A DNA stretch of 64,000 bases from Gemmatimonadaceae bacterium (GCA_030835125.1 JAUQWM010000002.1:1-64000), one strand, 5' to 3'; shown: positions 36,469 to 46,188, counted from the first letter of the stretch. Numbers and translations: made by a program. The notes: a model not told the origin generated them from the sequence alone.

Positions 36469-38832
36469 CTATTGAACCTTCAGCGTGGCCAGCCGTGCCG
36501 CCAGTTGGGCGACCAGTGCCGCCAGCTGGGGATCCTGCACGCGGTTGGTCATTTCGTACGGGTCGGTAGCGAGGTCGTACAGTTCCTTCTCCCCCGTCAC
36601 CCACTCGGCATACTTCCACGACCCGCTGCGGATGGCCCTCCACCCCGGGCTCGCGTCGACGTTGACGGCCAGCATCTCCATGAGCAGGTCGGTCCGCCAC
36701 GGCGCCACGGGTGAGAGCAGGATGGGCGTGAGGTCGGCCCCATTGGGCGCCAGCGACATCGAGGTGCCGGTCCACGCGGCGATGGTCGGGGCAAGGTCCA
36801 CGAGGCTGACCAGGTGACTGGAAGTACGGCCCGGAATTCCAGGGTACCGGATCACCAGCGGGACGTGGACGGCTTCCTCGTACGGCACGAACTTGTGCTC
36901 GATCCGGTGCTCGCCGTGCATCAGGCCGTTGTCGCTTGCCAGGATCACGAGGGTGGAGTCGAGGCGGCCGGCGGCCTGCACGGCGTTCAGGAGCTTCACG
37001 ATTTCCCGGTCGACCGACCGGAGCGTCTCCTGCTGCGAACGACGGATCGCCTGCTGGTGCGCCGAATCCACCGGGGGGCGGGCGCGCAACCATGCCGGCT
37101 TGCCGGCATCGACCGAGTTGAACGACGGCGCAACCACCAGGGGGTCATTGGCGTACAGCCCCACATCCGCGAGCGCGGGCTTGGCCAGCACGGGCCCGAT
37201 CCCGGTGTGGGGAGAGAACGGGGCATAGTACACGAACAGGGGCTGCGTCGTCGGCCGGCTCGAGATCCACGCCGCGGCGCGGTCCGCGAGGTACGTCGGG
37301 CTGTACGTGCCATTGAATGCGGACGTGGTCCCGTTCTGCGACAACGTGAACGTCCAGTACTGGTCCTCGTCGCTCATCATCGCGTTCCACTCGCTCCATC
37401 CCGGCTGGACCGCCGGCGCGAGCTGGTAGTAGACGTTGAGGTACTTCCCCCAGAGGCCCGTCTGCCATCCGGCGTCGCGCAGGGTGGTCGCGATGGTGGC
37501 CTGCGGGTTGAAGTACGGCGCACCGCCGTTGGACCCGTAACTCCGCCACACCCCGGTGTTGTGGGAGTAGCGGCCGGTAAGTAGCGAGGCACGTGCCGGG
37601 CAGCAGTCAGGTTCCGGCGTGTAGGCGTTGGTGAACGTCACCGACTGCGGAGCGAGTACTGCCATGGTCAACGGCAGGTACGACAGCTGGTCCGCGCGCA
37701 TGTCGTCCAGGAGGACCAGGAGGACGTCCCGGGTTCGTCTGGCCGGTGGCAGCGGCGACGATGGGCTGACCGCCTCGACCGAGAAGTCATCGGCCCACAA
37801 GGTGCCGCCGCCCTTTCCCGTGATGACCTGGACACGGACCGCAACGGCGCTGTGAGGCGCCGTGACGGTGTCGGTGATGGTGGTCCACGCCGTCGTGCCC
37901 TGGATGATCGCGGCGAGGGTGTCCGCGCGAAGCCAGTAGGCCGGACTCCACTCAGCACTACTCGGTCCCGTGCGCCACTCCAGCGCCACGCGGCCTCGCG
38001 TCAGGCCCTGGCTCGAGAGCCAGGCGGAGACGGCATACGTCGAGTCGGGGGTAACGGCGACTTCCTGGGAGACGGAACGGTTCCAGTTGCCATTGGCCTG
38101 CACCTGAACGGCGCCTGCGCCCGAGTGCGTTGGCGTCGCGACGCGCGTGCGTCCGCTCATGCCGATCGAGAACCATGGGCTCGTTCCCGATTCGAATCCC
38201 GGATTCACGACGAGGTTGACGCCGACCGGTGGCGGCGGCGGAGGGGGAGGCGGGGGCGGGGAACTGACCGCCGCGAACGAAGCGTCATCGGCCCACAGGG
38301 TGCCGCTGCCCTTGCCAGCGACAAGCTGGAGACGGACCGCCACTGCGTTCCCGGGCACGGTGACGGTGTCGGTGAGTTCGGTCCACGTGGTCGTGCCCTG
38401 GATGACGGCGGCCAGCGTGTCCGCACGAAGCCACAGTGCAGGGCTCCACTCCGCGCTGCTCAGTCCAGTGCGCCACTCCAGCGCCACGCGGCCCCGGCCA
38501 AGCCCCTGGCTCGCGACCCACACCGAGACGGCGTACAGCGAATCGGGGGTGACCGCGATTTCCTGGGACACCGAGCGGTTCCAGCTGCCATTCGCCTGGA
38601 GCTGCACGGCACTGGCCCCGGCGTGCGCGGGCGAGGCGACGAGTGTCCTTCCACTCATGCCTATCGAGAACCATGGACTCGGCCCGGTCTCGAATCCCGG
38701 GTTCGCGACGAGGTTCACGCCCGGAGAGAACGCGGTATTGGCCGTCGTCGCCAGGCGACCGGCGAGTGATGCCGTGGGCTCATCCGCGCAGCCCGCGAAG
38801 AGGAACAACAGGAAGAAGGCGCGCCTGCGCAT
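36469..38832 (-). CDS. Secreted sulfatase with duplicated N-terminal binding domain
   Basis: 787-residue lipoprotein (lipobox FAGC). Residues about 38-191 form a carbohydrate-binding-like sandwich (NPGFETG...SWNRSVSQE). An 11-proline linker leads to a second, nearly identical copy, and then the alkaline-phosphatase-fold sulfatase domain begins (VLLVLLDDMRADQL). The formylglycine motif is CCPARASLLTGR; metal ligands include the DD pair and SDNGLMHGEH. It should hydrolyse sulfate esters of complex polysaccharides outside the cell. The maturation enzyme (FGE or anSME) is not in the window. Confidence 0.88.
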   Translation of the reverse strand: MRRRAFFLLFLFAGCADEPTASLAGRLATTANTAFSPGVNLVANPGFETGPSPWFSIGMSGRTLVASPAHAGASAVQLQANGSWNRSVSQEIAVTPDSLYAVSVWVASQGLGRGRVALEWRTGLSSAEWSPALWLRADTLAAVIQGTTTWTELTDTVTVPGNAVAVRLQLVAGKGSGTLWADDASFAAVSSPPPPPPPPPPPVGVNLVVNPGFESGTSPWFSIGMSGRTRVATPTHSGAGAVQVQANGNWNRSVSQEVAVTPDSTYAVSAWLSSQGLTRGRVALEWRTGPSSAEWSPAYWLRADTLAAIIQGTTAWTTITDTVTAPHSAVAVRVQVITGKGGGTLWADDFSVEAVSPSSPLPPARRTRDVLLVLLDDMRADQLSYLPLTMAVLAPQSVTFTNAYTPEPDCCPARASLLTGRYSHNTGVWRSYGSNGGAPYFNPQATIATTLRDAGWQTGLWGKYLNVYYQLAPAVQPGWSEWNAMMSDEDQYWTFTLSQNGTTSAFNGTYSPTYLADRAAAWISSRPTTQPLFVYYAPFSPHTGIGPVLAKPALADVGLYANDPLVVAPSFNSVDAGKPAWLRARPPVDSAHQQAIRRSQQETLRSVDREIVKLLNAVQAAGRLDSTLVILASDNGLMHGEHRIEHKFVPYEEAVHVPLVIRYPGIPGRTSSHLVSLVDLAPTIAAWTGTSMSLAPNGADLTPILLSPVAPWRTDLLMEMLAVNVDASPGWRAIRSGSWKYAEWVTGEKELYDLATDPYEMTNRVQDPQLAALVAQLAARLATLKVQ

Positions 38833-39077: not shown

Positions 39078-40517
39078 TCAGCCCGGGCAGCGCCCGGCTA
39101 GGACTTCGCCGAATCGTTGCATCATCTCGTCGGCCCAGAGCAACTGGACGGCGCGGTCCAGGTCCGGGCCGGGCTGCAGGTTGAGTGACTCGGCCACCAT
39201 CGCGTTCACGGTGGGCTCCATGCGATGAATGTTCGCCGCCTCGAAGATGATGCGCAGTTGTTCGCGTCCGAGTCGGCCGCGGATGCGCTCATCCAGCATG
39301 AGCCGCGCTGGCTCGGACACGTTGCGAAGCGACCCGATGGGGTAGCGCAACGTGCACGAAGTGGAAGCGGTAAACACGCTTCCATGGGAGAACGTGATGA
39401 AGTCGCCGCGCGGGTACCGCTTCATCTCCGGAGTCGGCATTCCCTCGATCCACCAGGCCTTCTCGCCGCCAAGGCTCCCCCCAACGTCCGCGACCAGTGC
39501 CACCACCTCGGTGCACACACCGGTGGGCTTGTCCCATCCGCCTTTCCGGCAGACGAGGTCGTTCTGGTAGGCGTGGGTGTTGCTATACGCAATGAGGTTC
39601 AGGGCGATCGCCATCACCTCGGCTTCAACCCGGCGTGACCGTGGCCAACCGGGGAGGAGCTTGCCGATTTCGTCGAAGCCGAAGCCGTGATTGTACTGGC
39701 CGCCAAAGCCGAGGAATCCCTTCCCGCGAGTGACCGCGATCCGCTTTCCGTCGAACGGGCGCTCAACCGATGCCAGGGTGAAGATGTGCGGCGTCGCCGA
39801 CTCCATGGCGACCTTCTGGCCGAATGGATCCATGTTGCACCCGAAGCAGCGGACCGTGGCCGGCATGTAGACGCGGTCTACCGGTACGCCAAGGGCCCAG
39901 AAGAGCCGGCTCACGAAAGTCTCCGTGAACATCTCCCGGTATCGCATGGGTGGATCGAATCCCTGGAAGTACTTCACGCGGAGTTCGTCGCCTTCGCGCG
40001 CACTGCCGTCTTCATCCAGCACCTTCTGTCCTCGCGCGTCCAGCAAGTCCCCGTCGTCATCGAAGCTCACGGCGGCTGGGACCAGTTCTCCGGCATCGTC
40101 GTAGAGCTGGTTCCGCTCGTTGGTCCGCATGCACCGGAACTTCAGGCTTCCACCACTCTCGGCCCTTGGCTTCAGCCGGCAATGGACGTCGTCGCTCGCG
40201 CTGAGGGGGAAGTGGCCAGGCGGGCCCGCGCGGAGACGGGCGTCGGTTATAGGGGGAACAGCCGGTGCGACCAGGCTGGCGATGGCGAGGCAGGCCCGCC
40301 GGCTGGCATCGGTGACCTTGACCTTCACGCCATCTCCACCGACGGCAACGACGCACGCCGGCGCTGACGCGGGAGCGCAGCCTGGTCGCGGATCCGCGGT
40401 GGAAGCGCATGCAATCGGTGGCGAGACCGAGTCGGGCGTCGCAGCGTCCGAAGGCGCGGGCTCGGTAGACGCGAGCAGCAGGGCGCCCAGTACGGTGAGT
40501 GGATGCATTGCCAACAT
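39078..40517 (-). CDS. Secreted protein with kinase-like core, last gene of envelope operon
   Basis: 479-residue exported protein, starting at ATG 40517 with a signal peptide. The central part follows the pattern of a family of secreted proteins I recall from Acidobacteria and related phyla: VKYFQG (strand), FTETFVSRLFWALGVPVDRVY (helix; cut here), VRCFGC with paired cysteines, then LNLIAYSNTHAYQNDLVC near 313 and LVADVGGSLG near 340. The last two stand where HipA/FAM20-like kinases have the catalytic loop and the D-x-G metal motif, though the DRH triad is not intact. It may bind or transfer phosphate, or be a dead kinase. It lies 35 bases after the phosphatase gene. Confidence 0.6.
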   Translation of the reverse strand: MLAMHPLTVLGALLLASTEPAPSDAATPDSVSPPIACASTADPRPGCAPASAPACVVAVGGDGVKVKVTDASRRACLAIASLVAPAVPPITDARLRAGPPGHFPLSASDDVHCRLKPRAESGGSLKFRCMRTNERNQLYDDAGELVPAAVSFDDDGDLLDARGQKVLDEDGSAREGDELRVKYFQGFDPPMRYREMFTETFVSRLFWALGVPVDRVYMPATVRCFGCNMDPFGQKVAMESATPHIFTLASVERPFDGKRIAVTRGKGFLGFGGQYNHGFGFDEIGKLLPGWPRSRRVEAEVMAIALNLIAYSNTHAYQNDLVCRKGGWDKPTGVCTEVVALVADVGGSLGGEKAWWIEGMPTPEMKRYPRGDFITFSHGSVFTASTSCTLRYPIGSLRNVSEPARLMLDERIRGRLGREQLRIIFEAANIHRMEPTVNAMVAESLNLQPGPDLDRAVQLLWADEMMQRFGEVLAGRCPG

Positions 40518-40552
40518 CGTGACCTCGAGTGCCTGACGGTGAATGGGGAGCG

Positions 40553-41563
40553 CTAGTGGCACGCGCCGCCGCTGCGATCCCACGCGCGGCCGTTCACTTC
40601 GATGAACGCGCTTCGCCACGCGCCGGCACCCAGGGTCACCATCAGGACGCCGTAGCGTCCCTGGATCTGGTAACGGGAGTTGGCCGCGAGCGGTGTCCGC
40701 AGCCCGCGCAGTATCCCGCCCCCTGTCCCGACGATGATCTGGGTAATCCCGCCGACGGTATCGACCACGCCAGCCGGTGTCATCGGCGCGAAGCGCTCGT
40801 AGTGGTGTTCGTGCCCCGTCAGGACCAGCTCGACGCCGGCATCGAAGAGCGTCTGGTACACTCGCCGCATGACGGCGTCACCTCCGTGCGTCCCCGAAGC
40901 CCAGAGCGGCCGGTGGAAGTACGCGACCGTGCACTTCTTCGGGTTGGCCTTGAGTTCTGCACGGAGCCACGCGCCCTGGTCCGGCACCCCCTCGGGGTCA
41001 ACGGCGGAGAGCGGCAGGGTCTCGGTATTCAGCACAATCGCCCGCCACTCGCCGATGTCGTACGCGTAGTACCCCTTGCCGGGCTCCCCCGCGCGATCAC
41101 CGAAGTACGCGAAATACGCGCTGGCGCCCGCCGTCTGGTATTCGTGGTTGCCGGCGGCCGGCCGGATCCACTTCATGATGCTCCTGGTGGTGTCGCCCCA
41201 CGACGTCCCGAAGCACAGGGTGAACTGCGCCGCGGTTCCGGATGGATAGGCGTTGTCGCCCGTGGTGAAGACGGCATGCACGACCCCGGCGACGCTATCA
41301 GCCGCGAGGACGCTGTCGATGATTGCGGCCGTCAGCTCGTCGCCCGTTGCCTCGCACCGGCCGATGTCACCGGCACCGATCAACACGGACGCGCCACTGA
41401 GGGCGACCTCCTCGGCGGACGCGTCGGCCGACGGCGGTGTCAGGCGGGCGGCAGGCGCACACGCCATCGCAATCACGGGAAGCGTGAGGAGGAGTTGCCT
41501 CGTCAACCGTGCCGGTGGAAGAAGATCGAACCAGCGCGATGGTGGATTCGTATGGACCGTCAT
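40553..41563 (-). CDS. Purple-acid-phosphatase-like metallophosphoesterase lipoprotein
   Basis: 336-residue exported enzyme from ATG 41563 with lipobox IAMAC. All metallophosphoesterase blocks are present: GAGDIGRC, TTGDNAYPSG, AAGNHEYQT, VAYFHRPLW and TGHEHHYERF, so a binuclear metal centre should form. It would hydrolyse phosphate monoesters or diesters in the periplasm or on the surface. The start codon follows four bases after the stop of the kinase-like barrel gene, so it is in the same operon. The combination with the upstream gene is telling: in some Bacteroidota I recall these domains fused in one protein. Confidence 0.87.
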   Translation of the reverse strand: MTVHTNPPSRWFDLLPPARLTRQLLLTLPVIAMACAPAARLTPPSADASAEEVALSGASVLIGAGDIGRCEATGDELTAAIIDSVLAADSVAGVVHAVFTTGDNAYPSGTAAQFTLCFGTSWGDTTRSIMKWIRPAAGNHEYQTAGASAYFAYFGDRAGEPGKGYYAYDIGEWRAIVLNTETLPLSAVDPEGVPDQGAWLRAELKANPKKCTVAYFHRPLWASGTHGGDAVMRRVYQTLFDAGVELVLTGHEHHYERFAPMTPAGVVDTVGGITQIIVGTGGGILRGLRTPLAANSRYQIQGRYGVLMVTLGAGAWRSAFIEVNGRAWDRSGGACH

Positions 41564-41567
41564 TGAG

Positions 41568-44186
41568 TCAGTAGTCGAAGCCAAGACCAAACAGCCACCG
41601 GCGCTCGGGCCGGTTCGTCGCCATCAGGGTGATGCTCGTCCCCGGGCTGAGGACGCCGAGCCAGAACCCTCCCCCGGTGCCGGAGTGCCACCCGCCAGGC
41701 GACGCTCCGTCCACGAACACGCGGCCCGCCTCGATGAAGCCGATGGCGCCGATGTTCACGGGCAGGATGAACGGGAAAGCCGCGATGGGGAGTCGCAGTT
41801 CCGCGGAGCCATGGATCGCCGCATCGCCGGCAAATCGCTGACGCGGCGCCGTGCGCAGCGAATGCGAGCCGCCAAGGAACGCCGCATCGAAGTACGGGAT
41901 GTCACCCCACAGCTTTTCGATGCCGCCGCGGAGCGCCAGCAGGGGAGTGGTCAGGATCGGGATCGCGACGTGGATGATCCCAACGGCCCCGACGCCGGCA
42001 TATGTCCCAGTCGCATCCCATATCGCCGGATACGCGCTGCCGGTTGCCTCGCCGATGACGGCGGATTGCCATGGTGACTTGCTTGCGCCGCCGCCAGCCA
42101 GGCGAGCCGCGGTCGCCGTCGGGTTCTGTCGTGAGTCGTAGTTGAACCTGAGCTGCAGGCCGGCCTGGCCGAATCGCGAGAAGCCGTACGGCTGGTCGGT
42201 GGACAGCAACTGACCGGGGACACTGTCGCTCCGCGTATATCGCACGATTGGCCCGAGCGACACGTCGCTCGCGGGACCGAGCGCCCAGCCGAGCGCCGGG
42301 CGAAACATCCACTGTGTCTGGCTGACATCGTGGGATGCATCGTCGCGGTCGGGTACGTCGTTGCCGAAGCCCATGAACCGGCCGACGCCGAGTTGCGACA
42401 TGCCGCTCTCGCTCAACACGTGGACTGCGGATTCCTCGAAGCGATGGTCGGTCTCCAGCGTGATGCCGAACCCGCTGATGCTGGTCGAGTATCCGGCCTC
42501 GAGCGCGATCCTGCTCCGGTAAGGGATGGTCCGGAATCCATACTCGGTGCGCACGATGCCGAGTTGTGGCACGAGCCCGAGGTCGCGCCCGGTCTTGATG
42601 CCGAAGGTGGGCCGCGTGCTCCTGCCGTAATCGCGCTGCGCCGGCAGGAACTGGCCGTATGCGGGAAGCAGTGGCCGCCGGTTGAAGGCCTTGTGCGACT
42701 TGAAGCTGTCCGTCGGGTACCGGATCCCGCTCACCCGCCCGGCATCGTAGAATCGCGTGGGCGACCCGCGACCGTTCCCGGACGCAGCATCGATCATTGC
42801 GTTGTCGCCGTTGCCGCCGATCACGCGCACCAGGATTCCTGGTCCGGCGCTGCCGGTGACGAGCGCGGTGTCCGCTCCCTCGTGCAGGTACAGGCGGACT
42901 TCCTTCGTCACGGCCGGATCGAAACGACGGACCACCCACCGCGGGGCGTCGCCGGATCGCAGCCTGATGGCGACGGTCCCGTCGCTGAAGCGCTCGATCG
43001 TGGCCTTCTCCGCGGCGTCCGTCGCATGGATGTCCTGGACGCGGAAGAGCGCGCGGTAGTACCGATCGGCGGAGGCTGGAAGGCGATCGCGACGGGACAT
43101 GAGCCGGGCGGCGAGGGCGGGGACCGATGCCCGATATGGTGCCGGAATGTCGCGGAACGCGGCGTCGATGACCGAGTCGGTAATCACGCTCACGAGGTGT
43201 GTCGCCACGGAATCCCAGGCCGGCTTGTCGAGGCCTCCCAGCAGTCGCCGATCGAGCTCGCTGGCGTTCTGGAACAGGGCGGACACGTCAGGCAGGGTCG
43301 CGTCAAACGTGACCAGGTCCGGTTTCGCCAACCGTGCCACGCCGAGCAACCAGCCCTGGTGCGAGACGAGGACCTTGTCGCGATCGCGAGAGATCGGCAC
43401 CCACGGCGACCCGGCCTCGGATCCCAGGCGGGCCCACTTCCACTGGTCCGGGTGCCGGTCGTTGTCGCCGAGGAGCAGGTCGACCAACCGGGCACGCAGG
43501 AGCGCGTGCGCGTCGATCCGCTCGGTCGGGTCCTCGTTGAGGCGTTTCAGCAACTCTTCGCTGTCGATGATCTTGAGCGCCCCGGCAAACCCGGGCGCAT
43601 CATCCGGTACCTTGGGTGACTCCTCGATCATGCCGAGCATCCCGGCGAACTCCTTGCGAAACTCCCCGAGGCGCGCATCGTCTGGCATCACGACCAGGAC
43701 GGGTTCGGGATGCAGGACCCCGGCGGCTTCGAGAATCGCGGGCGGGATGAGGGGAGCAACCGGATACGAGGCGCTCAGGCCATCGGCCAACGCGGATTCG
43801 ACGATGGTTCCCTGGAATCCCTCCAGGTCCATCAGGAGCGCCTTGTGTACGGGTCGGAAGACGAACTCGGCGTCGCCTGACGTGACAAGGTGAAGTGTCC
43901 TGGTCTGGGCCCCGCCACCGGTCTTCGTCGGGAGCAAGCCACCTGCGAACTTCGCCAGGTCCAGGAATGGCACCGTGATCGGTGCGGCCCACAGGTCACG
44001 ATAATTGTCGCCCAGCATGAGGCGGTGCAGCCTGCCGGCACCGTACTCCCTGCTGGCCCGGACCGTCGTGTCGGCATGAGGGGGTGGTCGTGGACCGGTC
44101 TGGCTCGTGGCGACCGCTGACCAACCCACCGCCAGCATCGCGGCTATCGCGAGTGAAGCGCGTGCGATGCCTCGGACGGCGCTCAT
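41568..44186 (-). CDS. Kinase-like domain fused to an outer-membrane beta-barrel (BamA/D15-like C-terminus)
   Basis: 872 residues. After a signal peptide the N-terminal half (about 45-350) resembles atypical secreted kinases: FVFRPVHK (Lys of an ATP-binding strand), LLLGDNDRHPDQWKWARL near 239 (DRH catalytic loop, as in FAM20-like and HipA-like kinases) and ISRDRDKVL near 265 (metal-binding aspartate position). The C-terminal half (about 480-872) has long amphipathic strands ending in LFGLGFDY and the block GGSHSLRTAPRQRF, like the Omp85/D15 'surface antigen' barrels. It should place a phosphotransferase-like domain at the outer membrane. Start ATG 44186 overlaps the upstream stop (ATGA). Confidence 0.75.
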   Translation of the reverse strand: MSAVRGIARASLAIAAMLAVGWSAVATSQTGPRPPPHADTTVRASREYGAGRLHRLMLGDNYRDLWAAPITVPFLDLAKFAGGLLPTKTGGGAQTRTLHLVTSGDAEFVFRPVHKALLMDLEGFQGTIVESALADGLSASYPVAPLIPPAILEAAGVLHPEPVLVVMPDDARLGEFRKEFAGMLGMIEESPKVPDDAPGFAGALKIIDSEELLKRLNEDPTERIDAHALLRARLVDLLLGDNDRHPDQWKWARLGSEAGSPWVPISRDRDKVLVSHQGWLLGVARLAKPDLVTFDATLPDVSALFQNASELDRRLLGGLDKPAWDSVATHLVSVITDSVIDAAFRDIPAPYRASVPALAARLMSRRDRLPASADRYYRALFRVQDIHATDAAEKATIERFSDGTVAIRLRSGDAPRWVVRRFDPAVTKEVRLYLHEGADTALVTGSAGPGILVRVIGGNGDNAMIDAASGNGRGSPTRFYDAGRVSGIRYPTDSFKSHKAFNRRPLLPAYGQFLPAQRDYGRSTRPTFGIKTGRDLGLVPQLGIVRTEYGFRTIPYRSRIALEAGYSTSISGFGITLETDHRFEESAVHVLSESGMSQLGVGRFMGFGNDVPDRDDASHDVSQTQWMFRPALGWALGPASDVSLGPIVRYTRSDSVPGQLLSTDQPYGFSRFGQAGLQLRFNYDSRQNPTATAARLAGGGASKSPWQSAVIGEATGSAYPAIWDATGTYAGVGAVGIIHVAIPILTTPLLALRGGIEKLWGDIPYFDAAFLGGSHSLRTAPRQRFAGDAAIHGSAELRLPIAAFPFILPVNIGAIGFIEAGRVFVDGASPGGWHSGTGGGFWLGVLSPGTSITLMATNRPERRWLFGLGFDY

Positions 44187-45106
44187 GGTTTCACCGGCGC
44201 GACGGCCGTCAGCGGCCAGTGGTACAGCGTCAGCGTCGCGGCCCGCGTGGTCGCCTCATCGCCGACGATCAGGATGCCCTCGGCGGTGAGGGCGACCGCC
44301 TCTGCCTGGGCATGCACCCCGGGAAGCGTCGTGGATCGCACGACTTCCCCCCGGGGCGTGATGACGATCAGGGCACGCTCCTGCGCGGCGATGATCACGT
44401 AGTTCCCGGTTGCCGGATCGACCGTGATGTCCGACGGATGCAGTTGCTTCCAGGGATTCGTCCCGATCACCCGGCTGAGCGGAATCGTGAGTGGCGCAAG
44501 CGGCTCATCACCGGGTCGCAGGCGCCACCGATACACCACGAGATGTCCCCGCAGGTCCCGCGTGGCGACGTCCTTGCACGCGAGGAGGAACGCGTCCAGT
44601 GATGGATCCCAAGCTACTCCCTCGAACTCACACTGGCCCTCGAGTTGCGTGTCGTGAGCGCTGAAGCGTACCTGTTCGCCGGCGGCGCCCTCCGCGAACT
44701 CATACAGCATCCCGGAACTCGACACCACGAAGAGCCGCCGCTCGGCGGTCGTCATGCCCTCGAAGTCGTCCGTTGCTTCAGACTTGAGCGTGCCGATGGT
44801 GAAGCGCTTGAGCACGACGCCGCGGCGGGGGTCGATGCGGAAGATCTGCCCTCGCTCGTCCCCATGGGCAAACACCGATCCATCCGTGGCGAGCGCGAGT
44901 CCGGAGATCTCACCGAGCTCGCGTGGCAGGATCCACCGGGCGAGCACTCGCATGGCAGTGGGATTCGCGCTGGTGCTCGCGAGGCCGATCGCGAAGCGCC
45001 GGTCCCGGTTGTCCAGTTCGGATCGGAGCGCGTCCCGAGCTGATGGGCGGCATGCCCCAAGCGCCACGAGGCATCCCAGAAACGCGCACGCCAAGCGGGA
45101 GCTCAT
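44183..45106 (-). CDS. SdiA-regulated-like beta-propeller lipoprotein
   Basis: 307-residue lipoprotein (lipobox ALGAC). The mature part reads as a six-bladed-propeller protein of the SdiA-regulated type: ISGLALATDGSVFAHGDERG, DDFEGMTTAERRLFVVSSSG and CEFEGVAWDP, each repeating the 'D.EG......L' pattern. It may be a phosphodiesterase- or esterase-like binding protein; no catalytic residues are obvious. Its stop and start overlap both neighbours (ATGA), placing it firmly in the operon. Confidence 0.75.
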   Translation of the reverse strand: MSSRLACAFLGCLVALGACRPSARDALRSELDNRDRRFAIGLASTSANPTAMRVLARWILPRELGEISGLALATDGSVFAHGDERGQIFRIDPRRGVVLKRFTIGTLKSEATDDFEGMTTAERRLFVVSSSGMLYEFAEGAAGEQVRFSAHDTQLEGQCEFEGVAWDPSLDAFLLACKDVATRDLRGHLVVYRWRLRPGDEPLAPLTIPLSRVIGTNPWKQLHPSDITVDPATGNYVIIAAQERALIVITPRGEVVRSTTLPGVHAQAEAVALTAEGILIVGDEATTRAATLTLYHWPLTAVAPVKP

Positions 45107-46188
45107 TGGCTCCCGTTTTCCGCCGCTTTCGCAGCCTTGTCGCCAAGTTCGAGATCGACGGCCGAGATGCGATCGCCGGCACGGTCGCGGATGGCGGACG
45201 CGATGTCGGCGCCGTTCGTGGACTTGCCGACCCGGACGAGGTAGTAGACCTCGGAAGGTTTGCCGGTGTGGATCACCACTTCATCGAGCATCCACCGCTT
45301 GGTCAGCTTGTCCAGGACCTTCGGCAACATGGCCTGCGCCTCGTCCACCTTGTCGCTGGCTACCGACAGGATCGCGTTGTACCGCGGCTTCTTCTTTTTC
45401 GGGCCGGTGACTGCACGGACCCGGTCGAACCGCTCGCCCAGCGCCTCGAGCTTCCGTGGCGAGAGCGCGAGCAACACATCGCGATCCGGCACGGCATCGC
45501 CGTTGGTCTTGGCGAGCTTGCCGAGCGGCTCGCTCCACTGCGAGGCTGCGGTGGGCACGAGGGCGGTTCGCCCGAAGTCATACCGCCAGGTCAGCAGCAC
45601 CACGAAGTTGAAGGCGACGGAGAACATGCCACCCAGGCCGAGCATCTGAACGCCGCCGGCGAACCCGATCACGATCGCCAGGAAGATGAACACGATGTCC
45701 CGCGTCGTATCGAGCGTCGTCCGGAATCGCACGGCCGCCACCACGCCCGCCAGGCTGAAGGCGAGGGCGAGGCTGTTCTGCACGATGGAAACGATGCCGG
45801 CGACCACGATCGGTAGGATGAAGAGCGTGTGCACCACGTCCTGATTGTGACCGGGGGTATTCCTGGCCCACATGTACACCCATGTCACCGGCAACATGAG
45901 CGCGAGGATGCCGAGCAGGATCAGTGACGTGCTGACGACCAGCGCGCCCAGTGAGCCCTGGCCGAAGAACACCTCGCGCAAGGGTGCCGGGTTCAGGCCG
46001 TCCTGGAGAACCTGCGAAGTCGCCGTTGCGACGGCGTCACCTCCGGTCAAGAGGGCGTTCATTCCGGGGTATGCCCACAGGAGCGCGGCCACCACCGCCA
46101 GGAGGATCGCGTAGTACGCCACCAATCGCTTGACTGGCTTGGACGAGCTCAGCGTGACCACGTCGAGGAGCCGTTTCAGCACTGCCAT
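45103..46188 (-). CDS. DUF4956 membrane protein, first gene of envelope operon
   Basis: 361-residue inner-membrane protein: two membrane helices at the start, then three in the DUF4956 core (block FSLAGVVAAVRFRTTLDTTRD, cut here for length), and a cytoplasmic C-terminal domain of about 150 residues (VSDKVDEAQAML, VYYLVRVGKS). DUF4956 genes often sit beside polyphosphate-polymerase (VTC-like) or CotH-kinase genes, which fits the kinase-like partners here. ATG 46188 has AGGA seven bases upstream. It is the promoter-proximal gene of the five-gene operon. Confidence 0.82.
   Translation of the reverse strand: MAVLKRLLDVVTLSSSKPVKRLVAYYAILLAVVAALLWAYPGMNALLTGGDAVATATSQVLQDGLNPAPLREVFFGQGSLGALVVSTSLILLGILALMLPVTWVYMWARNTPGHNQDVVHTLFILPIVVAGIVSIVQNSLALAFSLAGVVAAVRFRTTLDTTRDIVFIFLAIVIGFAGGVQMLGLGGMFSVAFNFVVLLTWRYDFGRTALVPTAASQWSEPLGKLAKTNGDAVPDRDVLLALSPRKLEALGERFDRVRAVTGPKKKKPRYNAILSVASDKVDEAQAMLPKVLDKLTKRWMLDEVVIHTGKPSEVYYLVRVGKSTNGADIASAIRDRAGDRISAVDLELGDKAAKAAENGSQ

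Follow-up and report, generated by a model that had tools for sequence, protein, structure and literature searches.

A candidate envelope phosphotransfer module in Gemmatimonadota that links DUF4956, an Omp85-type kinase-fold protein and a metallophosphatase

We analyzed a gene cluster at positions 39,078 to 46,188 of a 64,000-nucleotide stretch of DNA from a Gemmatimonadaceae bacterium (GCA_030835125.1, JAUQWM010000002.1:1-64000), the whole of which is referred to as the window. The cluster encodes a protein, here named KinB, in which a predicted kinase-fold domain is joined to an outer membrane barrel, along with a DUF4956 membrane protein, a beta-propeller protein, a metallophosphatase and an orphan protein. 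An earlier note on this DNA had read the five genes as an operon that phosphorylates and dephosphorylates a surface molecule. All five open reading frames (ORFs) are located on the minus strand, tightly packed, and the positions that had been listed for them were confirmed, as were the 4-base ATGA overlaps at 45103 and 44183 and the 4-base gap (41564-41567) at the phosphatase-KinB junction. The genes, and the parts of KinB that were modelled, are as follows.

45103..46188, minus strand: DUF4956 membrane protein of 361 amino acids, with a transmembrane bundle and a C-terminal ferredoxin-like domain (Pfam PF16316; AlphaFold2 (AF2) model)
44183..45106, minus strand: SdiA-regulated or phytase-like beta-propeller, likely a lipoprotein (LGAC lipobox; PF06977)
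41568..44186, minus strand: KinB (P0003), 872 amino acids, with a signal peptide, kinase-fold domain, beta-strand linker and Omp85-family barrel
42729..44075, minus strand: KinB residues 38-486 as modelled, comprising the kinase domain and the beta-strand linker (AF2, Foldseek)
43377..43469, minus strand: KinB residues 240-270, from the predicted catalytic loop GDNDRHPDQW to the metal-binding motif RDRD
40553..41563, minus strand: purple-acid-phosphatase-like metallophosphatase (P0004), likely a lipoprotein (PF00149 and metal motifs)
39078..40517, minus strand: orphan P0005, probably exported, outside the conserved module

The AF2 model of KinB residues 38-486 obtained a predicted local distance difference test score (pLDDT) of 89.8 and a predicted template modelling score (pTM) of 0.90. 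Comparison of the model with the PDB in Foldseek returned 34 entries with E-values of 0.001 or lower, drawn from several kinase families, with probabilities near 1. The best match was CtkA (5e-6), followed by HipA (2e-5), PI4KII (6e-5) and CotH (1.5e-4), at about 10% sequence identity and TM-scores of about 0.3-0.5; FAM20C was not among the best 50 of 846 matches. Across 44 KinB homologues, K115, D268 and D270 were conserved in all 44 and D243 and Q248 in 43, where the roles of these residues (the lysine, the catalytic Asp, the Asn/Gln and the metal Asp) were assigned by analogy with HipA. From the model we are confident in a predicted two-lobed kinase fold close to the HipA/CtkA/PI4K/CotH group, with its catalytic residues intact, in agreement with the kinase-like domain that had been proposed for this product. 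Membership of the CotH or HipA family was not supported in hidden Markov model (HMM) searches, and the likeness to CotH is structural only: P0003 had no Pfam match, including CotH (PF08757), and PF08757 matched a single one of the 44 homologues, at an E-value of only 0.0066. No KinB was found in viral contigs.

The NCBIfam model Omp85_fam matched the C-terminal third of 43 of the 44 homologues (best E 7.6e-26), P0003 itself at 9.9e-10, which is under the cut-off of that model, and Pfam Omp85 matched 24. The barrel predicted earlier at this end of the protein is thus of the Omp85 type. No POTRA domain was matched by Pfam in any of the 44 homologues, and in the AF2 model a run of beta strands links the kinase part to the barrel. 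In PlpD, a well-studied fusion of an enzyme to an Omp85 barrel and the nearest in architecture to KinB among those studied, the enzyme domain stays in the periplasm (PMC11116518). Since the enzyme domain of KinB is likewise N-terminal to the barrel, it most likely faces the periplasm and not the cell surface. By this analogy, the proposed placement at the outer membrane is retained, and the periplasmic face is more likely than the outer face.

The assignments made earlier for three neighboring products were all supported by profile matches above the respective cut-offs. P0004 matched the Metallophos family PF00149 (37.3 bits, cut-off 21.5, E 4.9e-9) and a purple acid phosphatase chain (6git, E 5.5e-4), and its metal-ligand motifs GDI, GD.AYP, GNH, H and GH.H.YERF are conserved in 16 homologues. 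The propeller matched the SdiA-regulated family PF06977 (33.3 bits, cut-off 21, E 3.6e-8), with a match to Phytase-like PF13449 slightly below the cut-off (E 8.5e-6). DUF4956 matched PF16316 (40.7 bits, cut-off 30.6, E 2.6e-10), and its AF2 model was of moderate confidence (pLDDT 76.5).

About 60 KinB neighborhoods were compared, in which genes were called with a purpose-written codon-usage caller; because wrong reading frames from the caller could mislead, the partner genes were re-mapped by tblastn. Many of the sampled genomes are metagenome-assembled, and the neighborhood sample is weighted to the closer relatives of the window. KinB relatives were identified in 84 of 249 Gemmatimonadota genomes. 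DUF4956 and KinB were both present in 31 sampled genomes, at most 10 kb apart in 23 and also on the same strand in 22, as compared to a chance expectation of about 1% by our estimate (1-3 copies, approximately 4 Mb); their co-occurrence is far above chance. The order DUF4956, SdiA-like, KinB, phosphatase recurs at L019-L021, L023, L024, L053, L056-L059 and L062, and the 4-base overlaps are also seen at L019 and L053, and at L067. At the 39 KinB loci flanked on each side by 4 kb or more, we found DUF4956 at 20, a metallophosphatase at 20, PPK1 at 11 and an SdiA-like gene at 10, with at least one of these four partners at 27 loci.

The four genes are a real conserved module, and the fifth lies outside it. 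No homologue of P0005 was detected in the 249 genomes of the phylum besides its own, in plasmids or in viral contigs, and it never occurs at the loci of relatives, where other genes hold its position. The operon described in the earlier note therefore stands for its four-gene core, for which linkage was kept in the neighborhood comparison that the note had proposed, and is rejected as a set of five. For this core, neither of the two contrary outcomes named beforehand, a missing kinase fold or missing co-occurrence in relatives, was found. P0005, which is probably exported, had been taken for a second kinase; it matched neither Pfam nor the kinase profiles searched, and this assignment is not supported. 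A scan for sigma-70 promoters and terminators gave no signal above chance. Downstream of P0005, at 36469-38832, is a gene for a sulfatase-like product, the N-terminal part of which contains two repeats that are nearly identical (NLV.NPGFE.G.SPWFSIGMSGRT...). A second pair of KinB and phosphatase genes is present elsewhere in the same genome (contig C12, L054:5148-11685), with genes for a YkuD L,D-transpeptidase and an outer membrane beta-barrel upstream and without DUF4956.

The pairing of phosphatase and kinase extends beyond the window's closer relatives. In many other Gemmatimonadota, a different metallophosphatase (MPE9), encoded as a separate protein, lies before KinB. Bacteroidota, which were covered through plasmid records only, encode the two as one polypeptide: a 1214-amino-acid protein of Persicobacter contains a Metallophos domain (46-222) and an Omp85 domain (954-1169) with the kinase between them. 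The N-terminal part of this fusion is homologous to MPE9 (E 2e-58), and an SdiA-regulated gene upstream overlaps the fusion gene. The same layout was observed in Hymenobacter. That these three parts are joined in one protein of a second phylum argues strongly that the phosphatase and the kinase act together. On a Hymenobacter radiodurans plasmid (L114:5801-9559), the loop of the fusion reads DFGKHEDNW, without the catalytic Asp, and the gene adjoins one for undecaprenyl-diphosphate phosphatase.

DUF4956 was further compared at 77 places in 121 genomes, a sample that overlaps with the one used for the KinB linkage but is not identical to it. It was located next to KinB at 23 places, next to an exported CotH-like protein at 35, next to both at none and next to neither at 19, of which 12 were inspected. 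The window's genome itself contains a second DUF4956 gene (contig C20, L094:5734-7946), followed by one for an exported CotH-family protein (Pfam CotH 28.8 bits, cut-off 23.8), a pairing that was seen repeatedly in the phylum. PF08757 itself was matched by only one of six exported CotH-like proteins, and the other five are so labelled because they are homologous to it. Profile comparison detected no homology between KinB and these proteins, and a single membrane protein thus seems to have two alternative types of exported partner. The DUF4956 tree groups strongly by partner (4 changes, as compared to a mean of 11.9 after shuffling), with the KinB pairing having arisen more than once and several independent pairings. 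Similar sets occur in Gram-positive bacteria, where cotH, a polyphosphate polymerase gene and DUF4956 lie beside Pel polysaccharide genes, their function not worked out (PMC7112168), and in Clostridium perfringens, where VTC, a membrane protein and CotH are found together (PMC2879425).

Polyphosphate polymerase genes are a recurrent feature of these neighborhoods. In approximately 15 loci, KinB or DUF4956 is adjoined by a gene for a polymerase of 930-1110 amino acids that is made up of CYTH and, after it, a complete PPK1; Pfam identified PPK1 in 15 of 15 and CYTH in 11 of 15. In one genus (g5), a Ppx/GppA gene is located directly downstream of the module, followed by a convergent PPK1. DUF4956 genes without KinB adjoin a CYTH-PPK1 polymerase at L121 and L122, and a VTC polymerase together with a weak CotH match at L119. 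The two functions are joined in a single 922-amino-acid ORF (genome G070, contig C42, L126:3957-6725) that consists of DUF4956 (52.6 bits) and a complete PPK1 (domain E-values down to 1.5e-64). The substrate of PPK1 is ATP in the cytosol, and the C-terminus of DUF4956 is therefore placed on the cytosolic side by this fusion. The link to polyphosphate, at which the earlier note had hinted from DUF4956, is much strengthened by the CYTH-PPK1 neighbors and the DUF4956-PPK1 fusion in relatives. Genes for Ser/Thr protein kinases (STPK) were also observed between or beside DUF4956 and CYTH-PPK1 (L063-L066, L070, L074 and L134).

The reading that we favor, tentatively and with slightly less than an even chance of being right, is that the cluster encodes an envelope phosphotransfer module on the outer membrane, to which DUF4956 would deliver polyphosphate and whose action the phosphatase would undo. 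DUF4956 in the inner membrane would couple to a polyphosphate polymerase in the cytosol, either PPK1 by itself or a CYTH-PPK1 fusion, and hand the polymer over to the periplasm. KinB, anchored in the outer membrane by its Omp85-type barrel with the kinase domain in the periplasm, would move phosphate from polyphosphate onto an envelope protein, glycan or lipid, and the phosphatase lipoprotein would take it off again. The SdiA-regulated-like propeller would be an accessory, perhaps in substrate binding. Of this picture, the gene linkage, the predicted kinase fold and its residues, the Omp85 barrel, the phosphatase motifs and the two fusions come from the analysis itself, and the cellular locations, the transport, the donor and the kind of substrate are inferred.

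Several observations weigh against this proposal. The characterized kinases of the HipA, CotH and PI4K families use ATP, and no extracytoplasmic kinase that uses polyphosphate was found in the open-access literature searched. The window's own cluster contains no polymerase gene, and the sole PPK1 detected in its genome is on another contig (C19), beside a Ppx-like gene. The DUF4956 model had no significant match in the PDB, and a known channel fold was rejected for lack of such a match. None of the four partner genes is present at 12 of the 39 well-flanked KinB loci, and no DUF4956 was found on the Bacteroidota plasmid records with KinB, a search of plasmids and not of chromosomes.

Some of these points would fit with the same pair of envelope kinase and phosphatase drawing on a nucleotide or another phosphate compound, in which case polyphosphate would be only a regulator or chaperone, or DUF4956 would do no more than tether the polymerase. 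The nearest structural relatives of KinB are all nucleotide-using kinases, the cluster in the window lacks a polymerase, and PPK1 is absent from 28 of the 39 well-flanked loci. Set against this are the polymerases repeatedly linked and fused to DUF4956, and the periplasm has no known general source of ATP; we regard a nucleotide donor as a serious candidate, yet unlikely. The cluster could also serve phosphate scavenging, with phosphatase, phytase-like propeller and barrel freeing and importing organic phosphate, the kinase being regulatory or degenerate, and the nearby polyphosphate genes storing what is taken up. The metallophosphatase, the Phytase-like match below its cut-off and the Ppx and PPK1 neighbors are consistent with this, as are the many phosphorus-limitation genes carried by Gemmatimonadota (PMC10581226). 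However, the catalytic residues of KinB are near-invariant, unlike those of a degenerate module, and DUF4956 pairs equally often with exported CotH-like proteins; we regard scavenging as improbable.

Alternatively, KinB may be an Omp85-type biogenesis or transport protein, in which the kinase fold replaces POTRA and its target is not a protein but a lipid or polysaccharide in transit. Assembly or transport is the usual role of characterized Omp85 proteins, and membrane lipids change when PlpD is lost (PMC11116518). In addition, Hymenobacter relatives lie close to undecaprenyl-diphosphate and PAP2 phosphatases, the Gram-positive cassette adjoins Pel genes (PMC7112168), and the second KinB of the window's genome follows an L,D-transpeptidase gene. 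Nevertheless, no transport or lipid gene is conserved beside KinB across the phylum, and we consider a transport role very improbable in this form, although it overlaps with the polyphosphate-fed module, the substrate of which is left open.

The proposal may be widened such that polyphosphate exported through DUF4956 is the donor both for CotH-like proteins, in many lineages, and for KinB, in Gemmatimonadota and Bacteroidota; we put this forward as a possibility, and a doubtful one. If true, phosphorylation in the cell envelope would proceed independently of ATP. On the question of where bacterial kinases outside the cytoplasm obtain their phosphate donor, the repeated linkage and fusion of DUF4956 with polyphosphate polymerases, together with its linkage to exported atypical kinases, offer a concrete and testable answer.

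Among known systems, the yeast VTC complex couples polyphosphate synthesis by its polymerase to a membrane domain and moves the polymer across the membrane. The same idea of membrane domain plus polymerase applies to DUF4956 and PPK1, but DUF4956 has no significant structural counterpart in the PDB and PPK1 is unrelated to VTC4. KinB resembles HipA, CtkA, PI4KII and CotH (PDB 3akl, 4pu4, 4hne and 5jda) in its predicted fold, in the catalytic-loop Asp with an Asn/Gln five residues later and in the metal-binding Asp, and differs from them in being only about 10% identical, in having no family HMM match to P0003 and in being anchored in the membrane by a barrel. With PlpD it shares the signal peptide, the N-terminal enzyme and the C-terminal Omp85 barrel; the enzyme is a predicted kinase instead of a patatin, POTRA was not detected, and a beta-strand linker joins enzyme and barrel. 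Neither the kinase-Omp85 nor the phosphatase-kinase-Omp85 architecture was found described in the open-access literature searched. The closest likeness at the level of gene content is to the Gram-positive Pel cassette (PMC7112168), in which DUF4956 is similarly linked to a polyphosphate polymerase and to an atypical kinase that is exported. The present kinase differs in carrying an Omp85 barrel and in not belonging to CotH by sequence. Relatives have CYTH-PPK1 as the polymerase and not VTC, the cluster of the window has none, and the module further includes a metallophosphatase and a propeller lipoprotein but no Pel genes. The locus is a diderm variant of the Gram-positive cotH-polymerase-DUF4956 cassette with a new kinase architecture.

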